The notes beneath the pieces are model-generated. The model ran no database searches. It worked only from the letters and a program-made list of their open reading frames with translations, and had not been told where the DNA came from. Below are positions 2,933 through 12,850 of a stretch of DNA of 43,876 nt, one piece after another. Where the stretch lies: NCBI GenBank assembly GCA_947443745.1, contig CANEXL010000005.1, positions 1 through 43,876 of the forward strand, written 5' to 3'. Each line of letters starts with the position of its first letter. Within the stretch, counting starts at the first letter, position 1. The position numbers and the translations under genes were made by a program. Origin of the DNA: Microbacteriaceae bacterium. GTDB taxonomy: Bacteria; Actinomycetota; Actinomycetes; Actinomycetales; Microbacteriaceae.

Positions 2933-3958
2933 TTAGAGCTTCTTCGAGAAGTTGTAACCGACAGGGAAAAGTTCTATTCGGCCCTTTCGGGAAATCAGGC
3001 CCCAAATCCCGCCCCTGACAAACAGCACGAAAACAATGCCGATGACGCCCAGCAAGATCAAGTACAGAGGGCCATAATCTGCCAGTAGTTGTTTGAGGAA
3101 CCAAAAAACAAGCACGCCAATAATCGGCCCCTCCAGTGTTCCGACGCCACCGACGACGACGATGAAGATCATGAAGGCAGACCACTGCACAGAAAACACA
3201 CTGTCGGGTTGAACACGCATTGTGGACACCGCGATGAGCGCTCCCGCTATCCCGGCTCCCGCACCAGCGAAGACGAAGACGAGTCGCTTCACGGCCGTCA
3301 CCATCACTCCTGAGGTCGAAGCAGCCGTCATGTCATCGCGAACCGCCGTGAGGGCGAGCCCCGCCCGCGAACGGATCAACAAGACGCAGGCGGCGACAAC
3401 GATGACCGTCGCCCCCAGTCCGATCCAATAGCTGGTTGCGATTCGCCAGTCCCTCGACAGGTCGCTCATGGCAGAAAAGGAAATGCCAGCGCCCCCTCCA
3501 ATCTGGGGAAATTGCACCACGAGGAGTCGCACGACTTCAGCGACGACCCAGGTACCAACGGCAAAATAACCGCCGACCAATCTGAAGACGAGAAATGAAA
3601 TGGGGATGGCAATCACCCCGCAGACAACGGCGGAAAGCGCAATTGCGGCGAAAATATTCAATCCGAGCGAGTCAGCCAGAACCACCATTGAATAGGCGCC
3701 GATGCCAATGTAGGCCTGCTGCCCTACCGACACCATGCCCCCGTACCCGGCGAGCATATTCCACGTCATGGCAAGGATCACCAGGATAAAGAGATCGATC
3801 ATCGAATAGACAAGAGATAAATTCACCATGAAAGGCAAAACAGCGAGGAGCGCTGCCACCACGAGGAATGACGAGCTTCCGATGATCGACGTTCGCGTCC
3901 AGCGTCGAACAAAATGCGTGCGTTGCTCAACTAATACCTGAGCTACGGAAGCGCTCAT
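2933..3958 (-). CDS. ABC transporter permease, HAAT family (LivM-like)
   Basis: 341-aa polytopic protein with LivM-type signature (ILVILAMTWNMLAGYGGMVSVGQQAYIGIGAYSMVVLAD; GLALTAVRDDMTAASTSGV). 4-bp overlap with the next gene. Confidence 0.88.
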   Translation of the reverse strand: MSASVAQVLVEQRTHFVRRWTRTSIIGSSSFLVVAALLAVLPFMVNLSLVYSMIDLFILVILAMTWNMLAGYGGMVSVGQQAYIGIGAYSMVVLADSLGLNIFAAIALSAVVCGVIAIPISFLVFRLVGGYFAVGTWVVAEVVRLLVVQFPQIGGGAGISFSAMSDLSRDWRIATSYWIGLGATVIVVAACVLLIRSRAGLALTAVRDDMTAASTSGVMVTAVKRLVFVFAGAGAGIAGALIAVSTMRVQPDSVFSVQWSAFMIFIVVVGGVGTLEGPIIGVLVFWFLKQLLADYGPLYLILLGVIGIVFVLFVRGGIWGLISRKGRIELFPVGYNFSKKL

Positions 3959-4824
3959 GCTCGAACCTTTCGTCGGGTCAAACCATTCGGGAGGAAAGCG
4001 AGGAACAAAAGAAAGACAAGGTGTCCCGCAAGGATTTGTTGCGCTGGCGCGAAAGCGGCGCCGACCGTTTGCGCAACGCCCAGAATCATGGCTCCGCCAA
4101 GGGTCCCCCAGAGACTCCCCAGCCCACCGATGATGACCGCCTCAAAAGCGAAAATCAACAACATCGAGCCCGACGTCGGATTAAATGACGTTTGGACACC
4201 GGCTGCCAGACCCGCAATCGCGACGAGCCCGAAGGCAATTGCCGTTGCCAGAGCATAGATCTGCTTCGGATTAACACCTTGAAGGTCGACCGTTGCCGGA
4301 TCGTCACTTACGGCACGAACGAGTCGGCCATATTGGGTCTTGGCCGTTACCCACGAAAGGATCGACAGAATCACAATCGCCAGCAGAAAAATGAAAAGGG
4401 GAAAAACACCAACCCGAATATCAAAGGGCAACGTTATTGATGCCGTGTCCACGCCGCCCAGAGAAAGTCGCTTCTGGTCAGCCGATCCAAACATGAGGAG
4501 AAGGTTCTGAATGATGATCGAGAGTCCGAAGGTGACAAGAAGTGATGGCAGCGGAGAAAGCCCGAGCGTTCTCTGCAGAATCGTTCGCTGCAGGATGTAA
4601 CCGAGGACTGCCATCGCCGGGGCAACGATGAGCAATGCGGCCAAGGGGCTGATCAAGGCCGCATTCACAACGATGAGCGTTCCGTAGGCAGCGAGAACAG
4701 CGAAGTCGCCGTACGCAAGGTTCACTATCCGCATCACACCGAACATGAGCGACAGCCCAGCAGCAAAGAGGGCGTACAGTCCGCCGAGAAGGATTCCCTG
4801 GATCAGAGGGTCAAGAAGATTCAT
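3955..4824 (-). CDS. ABC transporter permease, HAAT family (LivH-like)
   Basis: 289 aa; LIQGILLGGLYALFAAGLSLMFGVMRIVNLAYGDFAVLAAYG is typical of LivH. Confidence 0.88.
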   Translation of the reverse strand: MNLLDPLIQGILLGGLYALFAAGLSLMFGVMRIVNLAYGDFAVLAAYGTLIVVNAALISPLAALLIVAPAMAVLGYILQRTILQRTLGLSPLPSLLVTFGLSIIIQNLLLMFGSADQKRLSLGGVDTASITLPFDIRVGVFPLFIFLLAIVILSILSWVTAKTQYGRLVRAVSDDPATVDLQGVNPKQIYALATAIAFGLVAIAGLAAGVQTSFNPTSGSMLLIFAFEAVIIGGLGSLWGTLGGAMILGVAQTVGAAFAPAQQILAGHLVFLLFLAFLPNGLTRRKVRA

Positions 4825-5519
4825 GAGTCTCTCTCCGTACCGAAGTACGCGGCAGAAATTTCGGACAAGGCTATATTTTTGCCAGCGAGCGACGTTGCCC
4901 CTTGGAGGAGACAGTGGACCTCGTCAGAGACGTTCAGGGCCCGCGAGACATCCTGCTCAACGAGGAGGATTGCCGTCCCCTGCTCCAGAATGATGGGGAG
5001 GCTTGCGTACAGCTCTCCAATAATTGACGGGGCCAAACCAAGACTCACCTCGTCAAGCAGCAGAAGCCTGGGGTTAGCGACGAGTGCACGCGCAATTGCC
5101 GTGGCCTGCTGCTCACCGCCCGACAGGTTTCCTGCGCGGCGGTCTTTACGTTCCGCCACCAACGGGAAAAGATCATAGACCGCGTCAAGAGTCCACGCAC
5201 CTTTGCGTTTAGCGGAAAGCGCCGTCTGCAAATTCTCGTGAACCGTAAGGGAGGCGAAGAGTCGACGCCCCTCAGGCACCATGATGATGCCGCGACGGGC
5301 GCGCTCGTAGGCTGGAAGCCCTGAAACGTCGTCGCCGTCGAACACAATCGATCCGCTTTTGGTGGGTAGTTGTCCGGCAATGGTCTTCAGCAGCGTCGAC
5401 TTACCAGCGCCGTTTGCCCCGATGATTGCCAGAATTCCCCCTTCGGAAATGGCAAGGTCAATGTCCCGAATCGCCGTGACTTGGCCGTAGGCAGCGCTGA
5501 GCTTTGTGACGTCAAGCAT
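4821..5519 (-). CDS. ABC transporter ATP-binding protein (LivF-like)
   Basis: Start likely at MLDVTKLSAAYGQVTAI; Walker A GANGAGKSTLLKTIAG, LSGGEQQATAIARALVANPRLLLLDEVSLGLAP. Confidence 0.9.
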   Translation of the reverse strand: MLDVTKLSAAYGQVTAIRDIDLAISEGGILAIIGANGAGKSTLLKTIAGQLPTKSGSIVFDGDDVSGLPAYERARRGIIMVPEGRRLFASLTVHENLQTALSAKRKGAWTLDAVYDLFPLVAERKDRRAGNLSGGEQQATAIARALVANPRLLLLDEVSLGLAPSIIGELYASLPIILEQGTAILLVEQDVSRALNVSDEVHCLLQGATSLAGKNIALSEISAAYFGTERDS

Positions 5520-6315
5520 GAGTATTGGGTTCTTTCTGGACCTCGCTGGGGCGGTTCTTGACAAAGGACTCGGCTTCATTTTCTCCATCGGGATCAAGTC
5601 CGAGATAGACGGACCGAACTTCAGGAGAATTGAGAACGGCTTGTGGTTCGCCCTCGGCGAGAATCCTTCCGTAGGTCAAGCAGATGAGCCGTGTGGCGAC
5701 CGCCGTCAATGCGTGGACAACGTGTTCAATCCAAATAACAGTGACGCCCGATGCCGAAACATGCCGGATAAGGTCGACCAACTCCGGCACTTCGCTCTCC
5801 GTCAAGCCGCCGGCAATCTCGTCGAGGAGAAGAATGCGGGGGTTTGCTGCTAGCGCGCGGGCAACCTCGAGGCGTTTGCGATCGAGCAATCTCAGAGAGC
5901 TTGCGGGATTGTTTGCGTATCCCTCCAATCCGACGCTCTTCATGGCACCGATTGCGAGATCTTCTGCCTTTTTACCTCGAGCATTCGCGGCGAAGGTCGA
6001 TGCGACAAGCAGGTTCTCCAAAACCGTCATCTCAAGAAACGGTCGTGGAATTTGATAACTCGTCGCGATCCCATGACGCGCGCGCCAACTTGCTGACGTA
6101 CGTGTTATGTCTTCGTTGTCCAGAAGAATTCGCCCAGTCGAAGCCCCCACCGAACCACCAATGACACTGAGAAGGGTTGATTTTCCCGCGCCATTGGGGC
6201 CGATGATGCCGAGGACCTCTCCGGCTTCAACGCGAAGGTCAAAGTCGGAGAGGACCTGGAGCTGACCGAACTTTCGCCCCAAATTTTGGGTCTCAAGAAG
6301 CGGTGCTGATGACAT
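5512..6315 (-). CDS. ABC transporter ATP-binding protein (LivG-like)
   Basis: 267 aa; Walker A GPNGAGKSTLLSVIGG, Walker B LLLDEIAGGLTESEV, C-terminal YLGLDPDGENEAE. Confidence 0.9.
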   Translation of the reverse strand: MSSAPLLETQNLGRKFGQLQVLSDFDLRVEAGEVLGIIGPNGAGKSTLLSVIGGSVGASTGRILLDNEDITRTSASWRARHGIATSYQIPRPFLEMTVLENLLVASTFAANARGKKAEDLAIGAMKSVGLEGYANNPASSLRLLDRKRLEVARALAANPRILLLDEIAGGLTESEVPELVDLIRHVSASGVTVIWIEHVVHALTAVATRLICLTYGRILAEGEPQAVLNSPEVRSVYLGLDPDGENEAESFVKNRPSEVQKEPNTHA

Positions 6316-6317
6316 AA

Positions 6318-7631
6318 CTACTTAGACCAGTCCATCTTTTCCATCGTGCCGCCCGTGGGAATTTGAGGGGCTTCCGAGTTGGAGACGATGACGATCTTGT
6401 AGGTTCCATCGGGCTGGATTCTCCACTGACCGCCGACAAGAGGAGTCTTGGAGACGTTGGCCACGGGTCCAGATGTCCAGTCCACGGGGCCGACAATGGT
6501 GTCTGTCTTGAGGGTCGAGACTGCCTTCTGAAGGTCTGCCTCATCAAGCGACGCGGACTTCTGCAGAACAGCCGTTGCGACCTCGAAGAGTGCTTCAGCA
6601 AAACCAAGAGGTTGCGTCCACTGCTTTCCCGTGCCCTTTTCATAGGCTGTTGCAAGGTCAGCTGCCGTTTGCCCGGTCAGGGTGCTCGTGTAGGGGCTGG
6701 AGGGTGACCACCAGACCTCGGACGAAAGGTTATTGCCCGTCGTTCCGAGTGCTTCCAGCGCCGAGGGGAACAGAATAGCTTTTCCAATCGTTGCCACCTC
6801 AGGTTGGTAACCCTGCTGAACGGCCTGCTTCCAGAACGTGGTGAAATCGGGAGGGATAGGAACGCCCACCAGAATATTGCTGTTCTGTGCTTTGAACGCT
6901 GAGATCTGAGCGGAGAAGTCCGTCGTGCCGTTCGCGTAGAGTCCGGGGTCGTTTTGCGTTAGGCCCATCTTCTCGATGACAGGAGGGAAGCCCAAAGCCT
7001 TATCCGACCACGCTATGCCGTCGGGGTCATTTGGCCACAGTTCAGCAACGCTCGTCGACGTAGCTCCAGACTGCTTCCACATGTCCGCATAAACGGCACT
7101 GATGTCTTCCAGACCCCAGAAGAAGTGATACGTCCATTTGAAGGGCTTCGCGGGATCTCCGCCACGACCAAAGAAGTAGGCCTGCCACGGTGCGACCGTT
7201 GAAATACAGACCACCTGATTTGCCTCGCACTGATCCGAAACGGGGTTGACCGTGTCGGGCGTTGACGACACGAGGATCATGCTGACACCGTCTTTGAGGA
7301 TTAACTCGGATGCGACGTCTGAAGCCCGCTTCGAGTCTGACTGGGTGTCTTTCGAAATAATTTCGACGGAGTGCTTGCTTCCGTCCGCGAGTGTGACGCC
7401 GTTCGTTTTGTAATACGCAGCCATCTGGTCCAAGACGAAACTGTCAGCCTCGCCAAACGCCGCCAAGGGGCCCGTCTGAGGCGTGACATAGCCAATCTTG
7501 ATTACGTCACCGGTCGGCGTCGCTGCGCCGGAGCCCAGGCCGCCACTGCAGCCAACCAGCGAACCGGTAGCGGCCGCAGCAACAGCGACAAGACTTAGGC
7601 CACGCAGCCATTTTGCTTTGTTGTGTGTCAT
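6318..7631 (-). CDS. ABC transporter substrate-binding lipoprotein (Liv/HAAT family)
   Basis: Start MTHNKAKWLRGLSLVAVAAAATGSLVGCSGG (lipobox LVGC); periplasmic-binding features (IKIGYVTPQTGPLAAFGEADSFVLDQM). Confidence 0.9.
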   Translation of the reverse strand: MTHNKAKWLRGLSLVAVAAAATGSLVGCSGGLGSGAATPTGDVIKIGYVTPQTGPLAAFGEADSFVLDQMAAYYKTNGVTLADGSKHSVEIISKDTQSDSKRASDVASELILKDGVSMILVSSTPDTVNPVSDQCEANQVVCISTVAPWQAYFFGRGGDPAKPFKWTYHFFWGLEDISAVYADMWKQSGATSTSVAELWPNDPDGIAWSDKALGFPPVIEKMGLTQNDPGLYANGTTDFSAQISAFKAQNSNILVGVPIPPDFTTFWKQAVQQGYQPEVATIGKAILFPSALEALGTTGNNLSSEVWWSPSSPYTSTLTGQTAADLATAYEKGTGKQWTQPLGFAEALFEVATAVLQKSASLDEADLQKAVSTLKTDTIVGPVDWTSGPVANVSKTPLVGGQWRIQPDGTYKIVIVSNSEAPQIPTGGTMEKMDWSK

Positions 7632-7725
7632 GTGCAATTTCCTAACTTCATTGTGGGGATTTGCTAAGGATTGTTGATGATTTCTTGGTGAAGCACCTTG
7701 CACACCGAGGTGGCGAAGGAGGTGA

Positions 7726-7743
7726 CTCCGGATTACTCCGGAG
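7726..7743 (-). other. Intra-operon hairpin at the dioxygenase stop codon
   Basis: CTCCGGA-TTAC-TCCGGAG: 7-bp perfect stem, 4-nt loop, no U-tract. It lies before the ~100-bp gap to the binding-protein gene. Confidence 0.5.
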
Positions 7744-8620
7744 CCAAGATGATGTCGAAGCGCACACGGGACCAGGGGTGGCCACCGAGGTCTCGACCGT
7801 CAGGTGTCACGACATCGCCGGCCTGATAGTGGAAATGCTTGATGAGTGATTCCTTCACGCCAAAAACACTGTCGCTGGAAAGCAGCTCGTCTCCGGCTAC
7901 GAAGATGTGCGTCACAAGCTTGCGACGGTGGGGCGCGGTCACCATGAAATGCAGGTGAGACGCGCGCATGGGGGAACGACTAGTGGCCTCAAGCATCATG
8001 CCGACCGGGCCGTCATGAGGGATGGGATACGGCGTCGGTGTAAGCCCCCAAAAAGAGTAGTTTCCATCGGGGTCGGAATAGAGATGCGCGCGACCAGCAA
8101 CCCGGCCGTCGGTGTACTGCACATCGTAAAAGCCGTCGTCGTCGGCTTCCCAGACTTCGATTCGCGCGCCCCCAATCGGGTTACCCTCCGTGTCGCTGAC
8201 CGTTCCCTCAACCCAACAGGGTTGCCCTGGGGCATCCCCCGCAATATCGCCACCGATATCGATGAGGGGAGCATCATTGACGAAAAACGGGCCGAAGACA
8301 GTTGCCTCGGTTGCGGTGCCAAAAGCTTCGTTATTCACGGCAACTGTTTGCATTGAGATGCCAAGAACGTCCGACAAAAGAATGAATTCCTGACGGCGAT
8401 CATCGGTGATGTTGCCCACAGCGGTAAGAAATTCGATCATTTTCTCCCACTCCGATTCGCTCAACCGGATATCACGAACAAAGTTATGCAGGTGTTGCAC
8501 CAACTTCTGCATGATCTCTTTCAGCCGAGGGTCAGCAGTTTTGTCGAAGGAGGCAATGACCGTGCGAACGAGATCTTCCTCACGTTTCGTTTGCTCGGCA
8601 GAGATGGGGTTATTCGACAT
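7733..8620 (-). CDS. Intradiol ring-cleavage dioxygenase, probably hydroxyquinol 1,2-dioxygenase
   Basis: 295 aa; intradiol core ([10 protein letters not shown]...[42 protein letters not shown]...[10 protein letters not shown]...RASHLHFMV) with expected Tyr/His iron ligands. Confidence 0.88.
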
Positions 8621-8631
8621 TTTTGCCTTCC

Positions 8632-9699
8632 TCAGTTCGAACCGGGCGTGATGCCAGCCCAGGCGGCGTGCAGCAATGCGGTCAGATTTTCTTTCGTCGC
8701 TGGACGGGGGTTGCTTTCGGGGATTAACGGGAGAGCGATGCTGACCGCTTCGTCAATGTCAGATTCCTTGAAGCCATAGTCCTTGAGAGCCGCGGGCGCA
8801 TTGAGCTCGGCACGCAGGGCATTCAACCCCTCCAGTCCTGTCGATGCTCCAAAGGCCGCGGCCAGGCGCCTATCCGCGTCTGCGGCAAACGGTGCATTGA
8901 AGGCCAAAACATACGGCAATACGGTTGCGTGCGTCTGGGCATGAGGAAGGTTGTACGTTCCGCCGAGAACATGGCAAATTTTGTGATGCATGCCCGAGCC
9001 GGCCGAAGCGAAAGAAACGGCCGACAAATAGGCTCCGAAGAGCGCCTGCTCACGCCCCTTCTCATCCGTTGGATTCTTAACAATTAGTGGAAGGCCTGAA
9101 GCGAGAGCCCGGATGCCTTCCGCGGCCAAGGCCTGGTTGATGGGATCCGCGCGCGGCGCCCACATGGAGTCAACGCAATGAGCAAGAGCATTCATGCCTG
9201 ACGCCACAGAAAGCTCAACCGCTAAAGAGTACGTGAGTTCGGCGTCGTAAACGACGGTTACCGGGAGGACACGGTTGTCTACCCCCGTGGTCTTACGAGC
9301 GCCCTCGGTCAGCCCCCACACGTTCGTTGCTTCGGAACCGGCATAGGTTGTCGCGACAGCAAGAATAGGAATTCCCGTGGTGAGCGCGATTGCCTTCGCC
9401 AGACCCGTCGTTGACCCTCCGCCGACGCAAATCAGCAGATCGATTCCATTGTCGACGGCGGCTTTTCTTGCATCCTCCGCTTTTTCAATCGGAACATGTT
9501 GAACGACGTCGCCGAATGTTACGGTCACCGAGATGTCGGCCGTCACGGCCTTCGCAATTTCTGCTTCAAACTCCGCGGCGATCAGCATCACTCTTTTGGC
9601 GCCAAGACGAGCTACTTCCTCAGCCACGTTTCTCGCTGCGTGACCGCCACCAAAAAGTAAGCGTTGACCCAAGGTTTCATGCGCAAAGTTGAGGCCCAC
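8632..9699 (-). CDS. Maleylacetate reductase (iron-containing alcohol dehydrogenase superfamily)
   Basis: Likely GTG start at 9699 ([29 protein letters not shown]) after [81 protein letters not shown]. Confidence 0.9.
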
Positions 9700-9704
9700 T
9701 GCGG

Positions 9705-11498
9705 TTAGCCCTTTCGACTGAGAACAGCGTTGAGAGCCGTGGTGAGCGCTTGAGCAGGATCGGCGACGCTTCCTTGTGAACGCCACGCAATGATCTTGTC
9801 GGGACGCACCAAAATGACGCCATCCTCGTCGATCTCGCGGGTTCGCTCCCAATCAAAGTAAAGGTCGGTTGTCTCACGGCCTGGGCCAATCACAACCGCC
9901 TTGAGGGGAATACCAAGATCTGCCGCAACCTTTTCGGCGGCTTTTGCCCACGCCTCGCCAGAAATGCCGGTAATCAGAGTGAATTGAGAGCTGGGGCACA
10001 AATCAAGCGTTGAGTACTTGCTGTTGTTATCCCCGACCCACACGTGCGGCAACGGCGAGCCTGGCACAGTGGACGGCTGATAGTAAAGCTCCGGGTCTCG
10101 GGTCGGTGCGGGCTTGGACGACCCGTCCGACAGCACGGCACTGGATTCGTAGAATTGCCCCATTTCGACACCGTGACAATTGAACTCGTAATCCTTGAGT
10201 TTGAGCGCCTTCGCCAGCGCCGATCGCTTGGCGCGCGCGGCGGGAGTGTTGTCCTTTCGGCTGCGAATCTGTTCGGCCATCTCCTGCTCGTTCTTCGCGT
10301 CGTTGAAACCGAGAGCCGTGAAGATATCGGCAAACTCGCGAGAGGATTTGTTAGCACGCAGCACTATTTGCTTCGCAATGGGCGCGCGCTCATCCGTGTA
10401 CGTTTCCAGCAATTCCGGGCCTGCGTACCCTCTGATAACGGATGCCATTTTCCACGCGAGGTTGTAGGAGTCCTGAACCGACGTGTTCGAGCCAAGCCCG
10501 TTGCTGGGGGGATGACGGTGAATGGCGTCACCTCCACAGAAAACGCGCCCGTTCTGAAGCTTGGTCGCATACATCTCGTTGACGCCCCAGAGCGTGTATC
10601 CGGTAATTTCAACGTCCAAGTCGGGGATTCCGAGCAAGTTGCGAACAATGCCTCGGGCCATCTCTTCGTCAATATCCGGTGCGGGACCCGTAATGTCGTA
10701 GCCCCACACAATCAACCACTCGTTCCAGGGACGGACCATTCGCACGAGACCTGTCCCGATTCCTCCCACATTGGCACCCGGCTGAACAACCCAATACAAA
10801 ACCGAAGGACGGTGGTTCACTAACGGAGAAATATCGGCCTTGAACGTGATGTTGATCGAACCGGCGATGTCCATTTTGCCCTCGAAGGTGAGCCCAATTT
10901 CTTCAGCGACTTTAGATCGGGCGCCATCCGAAGCAAAAAGGTATTTGGCGCGAATCGTGTATTCCGTGCCCGAGACACGATCGAGAACCCTCACGGTGAC
11001 GCCATTGGCGTCTTGGGTGTGAGAAACATACTCGTTGGAGAAACGTGTTTGGGTTCCCAGCATGGTGGCGTTCTTCACCAAGATTGGTTCGAGATACGTC
11101 TGCGGAATGTCGCAGTTCAGAGTGGGAGAAGCGGCCTCATAGTCTGCGTGGCGAGCAGGACTGGTGCCCCACGTCAAAATTCGTCCGAGTTCTTCGCCGG
11201 CAATAGACGTGCAGAAGACGGTATCGCCAATCTTGTGGTGAGGCGTGGAGTCAGCTTTGACCTGCTCTTCAATGCCGAGCTCCCGAAAGAACTCCATCGA
11301 ACGCTGATTCGTGATGTGTGCGCGGGGAGTATTCGCTGTCCACCGATACTTCGTCAACATGATGTTGGGAATACCGAGCCGCGAAAGAGCGAGCGCCATG
11401 GAGGCCCCTGCGGGGCCGGAGCCGATAATTACGACATCGGTTTCGACGACGCCATCGGGGAGAGCTGTTTCGGCGATTCCATCATTAAAAATCGACAT
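9705..11498 (-). CDS. FAD-dependent aromatic hydroxylase (phenol/resorcinol/2,4-dichlorophenol monooxygenase family)
   Basis: 597 aa; VDVVIIGSGPAGASMALALSRLGI (GxGxxG), YLFASDGARSKVAEEIGL, GRVFCGGDAIHRHPPSNGLGSNTSVQDSYNLAWKMA. Confidence 0.9.
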   Translation of the reverse strand: MSIFNDGIAETALPDGVVETDVVIIGSGPAGASMALALSRLGIPNIMLTKYRWTANTPRAHITNQRSMEFFRELGIEEQVKADSTPHHKIGDTVFCTSIAGEELGRILTWGTSPARHADYEAASPTLNCDIPQTYLEPILVKNATMLGTQTRFSNEYVSHTQDANGVTVRVLDRVSGTEYTIRAKYLFASDGARSKVAEEIGLTFEGKMDIAGSINITFKADISPLVNHRPSVLYWVVQPGANVGGIGTGLVRMVRPWNEWLIVWGYDITGPAPDIDEEMARGIVRNLLGIPDLDVEITGYTLWGVNEMYATKLQNGRVFCGGDAIHRHPPSNGLGSNTSVQDSYNLAWKMASVIRGYAGPELLETYTDERAPIAKQIVLRANKSSREFADIFTALGFNDAKNEQEMAEQIRSRKDNTPAARAKRSALAKALKLKDYEFNCHGVEMGQFYESSAVLSDGSSKPAPTRDPELYYQPSTVPGSPLPHVWVGDNNSKYSTLDLCPSSQFTLITGISGEAWAKAAEKVAADLGIPLKAVVIGPGRETTDLYFDWERTREIDEDGVILVRPDKIIAWRSQGSVADPAQALTTALNAVLSRKG

Positions 11499-11519
11499 TG
11501 ATTTTCCTTTTCCTCAGCG

Positions 11520-11543
11520 CAGCGCACCATTGCTCTTTGCTTG
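11520..11543 (+). repeat. Possible degenerate third copy of the purU 3'-end core
   Basis: CAGCGCACCATTGCTCTTTGCTTG versus purU CAGCGCACCATTATTTTTCGCTAG (2841-2864): 12 identical bp, then 7/12. Confidence 0.35.
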
Positions 11544-11582
11544 TCACTGAGCGTGCCAGTTCGATGCATGGAAAAGGTTTAG

Positions 11583-11620
11583 ATGGCGAATTTCATCAAC
11601 CTAATGGCGATATTTATCAA
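11583..11620. promoter_or_regulatory. Direct-repeat operator candidate for the adjacent AraC-family regulator
   Basis: ATGGCGAATTTCATCAA (11583-11599) and ATGGCGATATTTATCAA (11604-11620): 14/17 identical, start-to-start distance exactly 21 bp, about 85-120 bp upstream of the hydroxylase ATG. Confidence 0.7.
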
Positions 11621-12666
11621 GGCGAGCGCGTCCCAACAGAGGGCCCCGTTCGCGCCTCCGACGGGGTCAACCCGAATCGATTCCGAAAGACCCGGGAAAA
11701 GTGCGCGTGAGAGTTAAACCCGCAGTGCTGGGAAACATCGTTCACTGTCATTTGATCACGTGTCGTTGACATCAAAAGCCGTCTCGCTAGGTCGAGTCTT
11801 TTGTCTAAGACAACGTTCACGATTCCCCTATTTTGGCTCGAGAAAACCCTCGAAAGTTGGCGTTCACTCACACCGATGGCGAGTGAGATCATGCTGGCCG
11901 AGAGATCCGGATTGCGTAAATGACGATCGATGAAGGCAAGCGCGATTCTGAACTGCGACGAAAGACTGGACGCGCTGGTGCTCGCAAAAATTCCCCGAAG
12001 GAGATCGAAAATATGGTCTTCGGTCTCGGTGAGAGGTTCATCTGCGGGATTCGACAATGCTTTCGACATATTGTCCGCGATCAAGGTCGCGAAATCATTC
12101 GCTTTGGTGGATTTGCCGAAGTTGAGGACGTGGGGTTCACCGCTCGCGGGGAGTTCGCCATCGGAAATTTCGGCAAATGAATTACGCGGAACCATCAAAA
12201 CAAGTTCTTTCAATCCTTTTGCGAAACCGCGCATGAACGGCCGATCAGAGTCATAGACCAGAACGCTTCCCGGGCCAAGGGTTCTCACTCCGTCTTTGTG
12301 ATAAAAAAACGAGTCGCCAAAAAGGGCAAAGTAGAGAACGACCGAGTCGGCGGGAGCAGAACGGATATGCGCCGACGACCTCTCTATTACATGCGCGTTG
12401 GCCGCCACGTGGGCAAAGTGCAATCGGGGGAGGTGAAGGTTTACCTCTGTTGCTTCAAGAGATGCCCCATGAATGGTTCGAGCCCCCAAGCTCACCAACG
12501 CCTTGGCGTTGTGATCTTCCCACTTCTCAACCCGGTCTGGGTCGTCTAAACCGCTGGTGGTGAAACGTTCCGAATTGACCTGAAATCGGGGAGACAAATC
12601 CCCCGAAGGCGTTGAGGCGATGACGGGCTCGCCCGTCGTGCTGAGAGAAAAACCACTGTGGGCCAC
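11617..12666 (-). CDS. AraC-family transcriptional regulator
   Basis: C-terminal double HTH (IDRHLRNPDLSASMISLAIGVSERQLSRVFSSQNRGIVNVVLDKRLDLARRLLMST...VNDVSQHCGFNSHAHFSRVFRNRFGLTPSEAR). GTG start at 12666 preceded by GGGGGAGG. The upstream extension in the ORF track reads through the purU repeat. Confidence 0.88.
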   Translation of the reverse strand: MAHSGFSLSTTGEPVIASTPSGDLSPRFQVNSERFTTSGLDDPDRVEKWEDHNAKALVSLGARTIHGASLEATEVNLHLPRLHFAHVAANAHVIERSSAHIRSAPADSVVLYFALFGDSFFYHKDGVRTLGPGSVLVYDSDRPFMRGFAKGLKELVLMVPRNSFAEISDGELPASGEPHVLNFGKSTKANDFATLIADNMSKALSNPADEPLTETEDHIFDLLRGIFASTSASSLSSQFRIALAFIDRHLRNPDLSASMISLAIGVSERQLSRVFSSQNRGIVNVVLDKRLDLARRLLMSTTRDQMTVNDVSQHCGFNSHAHFSRVFRNRFGLTPSEARTGPSVGTRSP

Positions 12667-12724
12667 CGCAAACCTCCCCCGCTCGACCCTGAAACTGAAG
12701 TTGTAGAAGACTACCAGCGACCAG

Positions 12725-12760
12725 CTTCTGGACGGGCAACGCACCATTATTTTTCGCTAG
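12725..12760 (+). repeat. Right copy of direct repeat: orphan fragment encoding purU C-terminus LLDGQRTIIFR*
   Basis: CTTCTGGACGGGCAACGCACCATTATTTTTCGCTAG; 32/36 identical to 2829-2864. Identical 21-bp core at 12740-12760. An in-frame stop lies a few codons upstream. Confidence 0.93.
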
Positions 12761-12850
12761 CTAGAAGCAATTCGGCCCCTCGTCTGGCTTCATAAGCAAT
12801 TCATAGAATTCGCCAATGATTCGCTCAGACGCGAGTGTCACAGTCATCTC

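Follow-up and report, generated by a model that had tools for sequence, protein, structure and literature searches.

The DNA that we analyzed, a 43,876-nucleotide stretch from a Microbacteriaceae bacterium (contig CANEXL010000005.1; "the window"), encodes an AraC/XylS-family regulator, followed by catabolic genes and transporter genes. A pair of direct repeats lies between the regulator and the first catabolic gene. The features of interest, listed in the direction of transcription, are all on the minus strand:

11617..12666, minus: AraC/XylS-family regulator (Pfam HTH_18), the presumed binder of the repeats
11604..11620, minus: promoter-distal half-site TTGATAAATATCGCCAT, read directly and conserved in relatives
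11583..11599, minus: promoter-proximal half-site TTGATGAAATTCGCCAT, read directly and conserved in relatives
11552..11557, minus: weak -10-like element GGCACG (predicted), 26 bp after the proximal B-box and at a similar position in relatives
9705..11498, minus: FAD-dependent phenolic hydroxylase, the first gene of the operon (FAD_binding_3 and Rng_hyd_C)
8632..9852 (longest open reading frame), minus: maleylacetate reductase-like Fe-ADH (Fe-ADH Pfam)
7733..8620, minus: hydroxyquinol 1,2-dioxygenase (478 bits to 1tmx, a hydroxyquinol 1,2-dioxygenase)
2933..7703, minus: branched-chain-amino-acid-type ABC importer (SBP, LivG, LivF, LivH, and LivM; Pfam)

The longest open reading frame for the regulator extends to 12747. 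Pfam identifies HTH_18 (1.4e-17) and also an HTH_AraC domain in this protein, and the C-terminal helix-turn-helix region is conserved among its homologues. At the N terminus, there is a weak match to AraC_binding_2, below that family's cut-off; the matches to NCBIfam are also below their cut-offs. The nearest solved structures to the hydroxylase are of 2-hydroxybiphenyl 3-monooxygenase. The true start of the Fe-ADH is probably inside the open reading frame given above, and its counterpart on plasmid pACHL02 of Pseudarthrobacter chlorophenolicus A6, which is next in the gene order there, is annotated as maleylacetate reductase. The five-gene ABC importer probably belongs to the same operon as the catabolic genes, at its distal end; the importer is also found downstream of these genes in three related loci (L030, L031, and L033). 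We take this gene set to be a route from a phenolic compound via hydroxyquinol and maleylacetate to 3-oxoadipate, and our best guess for the phenolic compound is resorcinol.

A 38-bp direct repeat (2828-2865 and 12724-12761; 89% identical) places a second copy of the 3' end of purU, which encodes formyl-tetrahydrofolate deformylase, beyond the catabolic segment. In the one other genome of the genus that we examined (L070 in G083), positions 1-2874 and 12724 onward of the window are adjacent, with a 47-bp overlap. This adjacency implies that the roughly 9.9-kb segment from AraC to LivM has been inserted at the 3' end of purU and that its flanks are att-like. We saw no integrase within the segment.

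The tandem repeat

The two copies of the repeat are ATGGCGAATTTCATCAA (11583-11599) and ATGGCGATATTTATCAA (11604-11620). These 17-base copies are identical at 14 positions and start exactly 21 bp apart. On the minus strand, the full element is TTGATAAATATCGCCAT-TAGG-TTGATGAAATTCGCCAT, which can be written as TTGAT-N5-TCGCCAT-N4-TTGAT-N5-TCGCCAT. Each half-site is TGAT-N6-CGCCA: in the distal half-site, TGAT is the A-box and CGCCA is the B-box, and the proximal half-site lies 21 bp downstream. About 85 bp separate the end of the pair from the ATG of the hydroxylase. The initial annotation had described the identity and the offset of the copies, had placed them between the 3' end of the AraC gene (11617-12666) and the start of the hydroxylase (from 11498, also on the minus strand), and had noted an overlap of one half-site with the stop codon of AraC. 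On re-reading, every detail was correct: letters 2-4 of the distal half-site, inside copy 2, form the stop codon TGA (11619-11617).

Such a repeat could be a chance resemblance, or the functionless remnant of a local tandem duplication. Short two-copy repeats are indeed frequent if all spacings from 17 to 30 are allowed, with a mean of 1.3 tandems per shuffled window. However, for dinucleotide-shuffled versions of the 142-bp intergenic segment, a tandem with at least 14 of 17 identities at 21 bp has P = 0.00015, or P = 0.0011 for any spacing from 17 to 30. When the whole window was shuffled, the mean count at 21 bp was 0.055, versus one observed. We found the two-half-site pattern once in the window and in none of 100 shuffles. 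There is no second tandem elsewhere in the window, such as before the transporter genes (the next best score is 8.7, versus 36.1 for the tandem). Across the 2.0-Mb draft assembly, which is 88% complete, the full pattern has a single match, and every other match has three mismatches. As shown below, it is the boxes and not the spacers that relatives share, at the 21-bp period, and this contradicts the explanation. We consider it barely credible.

A generic repeat finder did not list a direct repeat at 11583-11620, probably because the copies share no exact 9-base seed. We also considered a known riboswitch or another known RNA family, which was ruled out by an Rfam scan without any match.

Conservation in homologous operons

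The initial annotation proposed a motif search upstream of homologous operons and named a lack of conservation as evidence against an operator. Family- and order-wide searches gave 18 loci, including the window, that encode homologues of both the regulator and the hydroxylase; L027, L032, L093, and L094 are cut at contig ends and were not counted. Using a leave-one-out half-site matrix, for which 11 of the 18 loci were seeds, and a threshold of P < 0.01, we found a tandem match with a 21-bp period in 15 of the 18 upstream regions, always at -103 to -137 from the hydroxylase. In a 16th locus (L053), an additional, glyoxalase-like gene comes first in the operon, and it is this gene that the tandem precedes (TGGCCTGGTCCCGCCG-TCCTC-TGGCCCGGGACGGCCA), with GACACT another 28 bp beyond. 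The tandem is the best-scoring match of the entire locus in most cases. Thus, the search bore out the conservation of the repeats.

Because 11 of the 18 loci were seeds, the support from the matrix is partly circular. Four of the seven non-seed loci pass (L030, L045, L051, and L052). A motif-free test, which is not circular, gave a mean best self-identity of 10.56/16 at 21 bp across the 18 upstream regions; no other spacing exceeded 8.39, and the maximum over 500 shuffles was 9.11. So the 21-bp spacing, which had been likened to that of AraC/XylS-type half-sites, is a property of the relatives as well as of the window.

The pooled half-site consensus is TTGMSnATTYCSGCCA. G13 and C15 are invariant; T1, T2, G3, C14, and A16 are strong; and the information is highest at positions 1-4 and 13-16. 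The positions of the boxes are conserved across relatives, at a period of 21 bp, and the spacers are not. The nearest relative is Aurantimicrobium minutum (L001), with 67% identity in the regulator and 88% in the hydroxylase, and it has TTGATTATTCTCGCCAT-TTAG-ATGATTTATTCCGCCAC at the equivalent place. Two loci with diverged regulators, L039 (40% identical) and L044 (35%), have no clear tandem. We did not find the motif in more distant homologues from Streptomyces (L096), Kocuria (L097), and Citricoccus (L098) or in a relative from a Pseudomonas plasmid, and regulator homologues without an adjacent hydroxylase (L035, L040, L042, L054, and L055) have no tandem.

As a side observation, the AraC stop codon is the TGA of the distal TTGA in 6 of the 13 loci that we checked (the window, L026, L028, L029, L030, and L045).

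Association with the operon start and with the regulator

In L034 and L052, the gene order is hydroxylase-reductase-dioxygenase-AraC, with the regulator last, and the tandem is still found before the hydroxylase. (By eye, an apparent tRNA gene precedes the tandem in L034.) Because the tandem is upstream of the first gene where AraC sits elsewhere (L034, L052, and L053), the comparison of sequences indicates that it belongs to the start of the operon and not to the end of the AraC gene.

The promoter itself is less distinct. A consensus scan of the window found no passing sigma-70 promoter, which fits a promoter that would depend on an activator. In about 13 loci, the relatives have a -10-like element, GAYACT or CATACT, that is 26-29 bp past the proximal B-box; the window's GGCACG is a poor match but lies at a distance that matches the relatives. 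If GGCACG is the -10 element, then transcription would start near 11545, and the half-sites would be at about -74/-60 and -53/-39. Since most loci have the -10-like element 26-29 bp past the tandem, the proximal repeat may overlap or adjoin the -35 region of the predicted promoter.

We considered whether the AraC protein might bind the repeats as a repressor or for autoregulation, either by blocking read-through or by DNA looping that tunes the expression of araC. In 6 of 13 loci, the AraC stop codon is overlapped by a half-site, which would suit such a role, and read-through is conceivable, since the consensus scan found no terminator between the AraC and hydroxylase genes. However, the site is upstream of the hydroxylase or of the first gene even when AraC is at the far end (L034, L052, and L053), and the -10-like element follows it at an almost fixed distance (26-29 bp), as would be expected of an activator site. 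Repression or autoregulation therefore seems unlikely.

The tandem also goes with the presence of the regulator. Four loci contain the hydroxylase without an AraC homologue in 15-16 kb (L089, L090, L091, and L092), and none of these has a tandem upstream of the hydroxylase. The difference (15/18 versus 0/4; Fisher P = 0.005) is indicative, as related genomes are not fully independent. One of these hydroxylases (L089, 7790-9577), from the same family, is 81% identical to the window's; with neither an AraC homologue nor a nearby tandem, its operon is therefore presumably regulated differently. Conversely, L043 has a regulator homologue and then sugar-ABC genes, and a strong tandem lies directly downstream of the regulator (8391-8428; score 29.3). 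L041 has one strong half-site (at about 1275-1291) between the regulator and the genes of an ABC transporter with a sugar-binding protein. These two loci suggest a wider regulator subfamily that shares one type of operator.

Another possibility is that a different regulator, encoded elsewhere in the genome, binds the repeats. The binding protein cannot be named from sequence alone, and the boxes differ from the XylS consensus of TGCA/GGNTA. But this AraC subfamily and the motif occur together, and the motif is missing from loci in which the same hydroxylase has no AraC homologue. It is also found beside the related regulator that adjoins a different operon in L043. Also, direct repeats of about 21 bp with two boxes are the AraC/XylS pattern. 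We view binding by a different regulator as very improbable.

Known operators and the proposed mechanism

Operators of the AraC/XylS family are direct repeats with a spacing of about 21 bp and two boxes per repeat (PMC5481539, PMC6205950). XylS binds two 15-bp repeats, each TGCA-N6-GGTA (PMC5481539), and CphR from Rhodococcus sp. YH-5B binds TGCA-N6-GGNTA twice, at -35/-49 and -55/-69 (PMC6205950). The site in the window has the same layout, with repeats of about 15-17 bp, a period of 20-21 bp, two boxes about 6 bp apart, and a double-helix-turn-helix protein of the AraC/XylS family encoded nearby. It is not of the same sequence class: its boxes are TTGAT and CGCCA, and those of the consensus are TTGMS and SGCCA. 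By analogy, a site with the same layout and other letters may work like the XylS and CphR operators, yet it lies outside the TGCA/GGNTA class.

The XylS/Pm operator of the TOL plasmid (PMC5481539) resembles the window's site in having two direct repeats of A-box, six bases, and B-box, and also in the role that we predict, in which an AraC/XylS activator binds ahead of an operon for aromatic catabolism. They differ in their boxes (TGCA/GGTA versus TGAT/CGCCA) and in position, as the window's site is predicted to be a few bp further upstream; also, compared to XylS, the regulator's effector domain is weakly recognized by Pfam. The CphR site of cphA2A1 (PMC6205950) is likewise a pair of imperfect direct repeats, spanning -35 to -69, for an actinobacterial AraC-type regulator that adjoins a phenol-hydroxylating operon. 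However, the CphR genes are divergent and the target is a two-component monooxygenase, whereas the window's genes are co-directional; the CphR consensus is TGCA-N6-GGNTA, versus half-sites of TTGMSnATTYCSGCCA; and the window's site would be about 4 bp further upstream, if the start that we inferred is right. Plasmid pACHL02 has the same order of genes as the window (AraC-hydroxylase-maleylacetate reductase-dioxygenase), with a regulator that is 40% identical and a hydroxylase that is 68% identical. The best tandem of its 19-kb stretch is at the equivalent place, but it is much weaker (score 13.7 versus 36.1). Unlike the window's cluster, this one is on a conjugative plasmid and does not have an ABC importer directly downstream.

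Overall, we estimate a probability of roughly 87% that the tandem repeat is the operator at which the AraC/XylS-type regulator activates the hydroxylase-reductase-dioxygenase-transporter operon. The prediction of a likely AraC operator for this operon in the initial annotation is thus supported by the 15 of 18 loci and the 16th, by the position at the operon's promoter, by the absence of the tandem from all four AraC-less loci, and by the architecture of two boxes, N6, and about 21 bp that was published for XylS and CphR. At each half-site, the regulator's two helix-turn-helix motifs would read the A-box (TTGAT) and the B-box (CGCCA), six bases apart. The promoter would be weak, with its -10 element predicted at 11557-11552, and the bound regulator would sit beside its -35 position. 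It would then activate transcription of the minus-strand operon, presumably with a phenolic inducer present. We infer activation as the direction of regulation.

This kind of site is ordinary and the mechanism is textbook, but the recognition sequence appears to be unreported. In a limited search of the open-access literature, the half-site consensus was absent, and the only work on an AraC regulator of resorcinol or hydroxyquinol operons was that on CphR. We think it probable that the Microbacteriaceae and neighboring families of the same order share a regulator subfamily with an unreported operator (TTGMSnATTYCSGCCA twice, 21 bp apart) that controls hydroxyquinol-pathway operons and, in related members, sugar-type ABC operons, with the distal half-site doubling as the regulator's stop codon in several lineages. 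If so, this is a candidate recognition sequence for the AraC subfamily over the breakdown of phenolic compounds in microbacteria, including Aurantimicrobium, and it could be used to find members of the regulon by sequence or to build inducible promoters for these hosts.

Finally, by eye, several loci have in common a CACGACGACGTGGCGC-like stretch downstream of the -10-like element and upstream of the ribosome-binding site. It is at about 11515-11540 (minus strand) in the window, with equivalents in L001, L030, L033, L037, L038, and L045, and it may be a further control element, within the 5' untranslated region.
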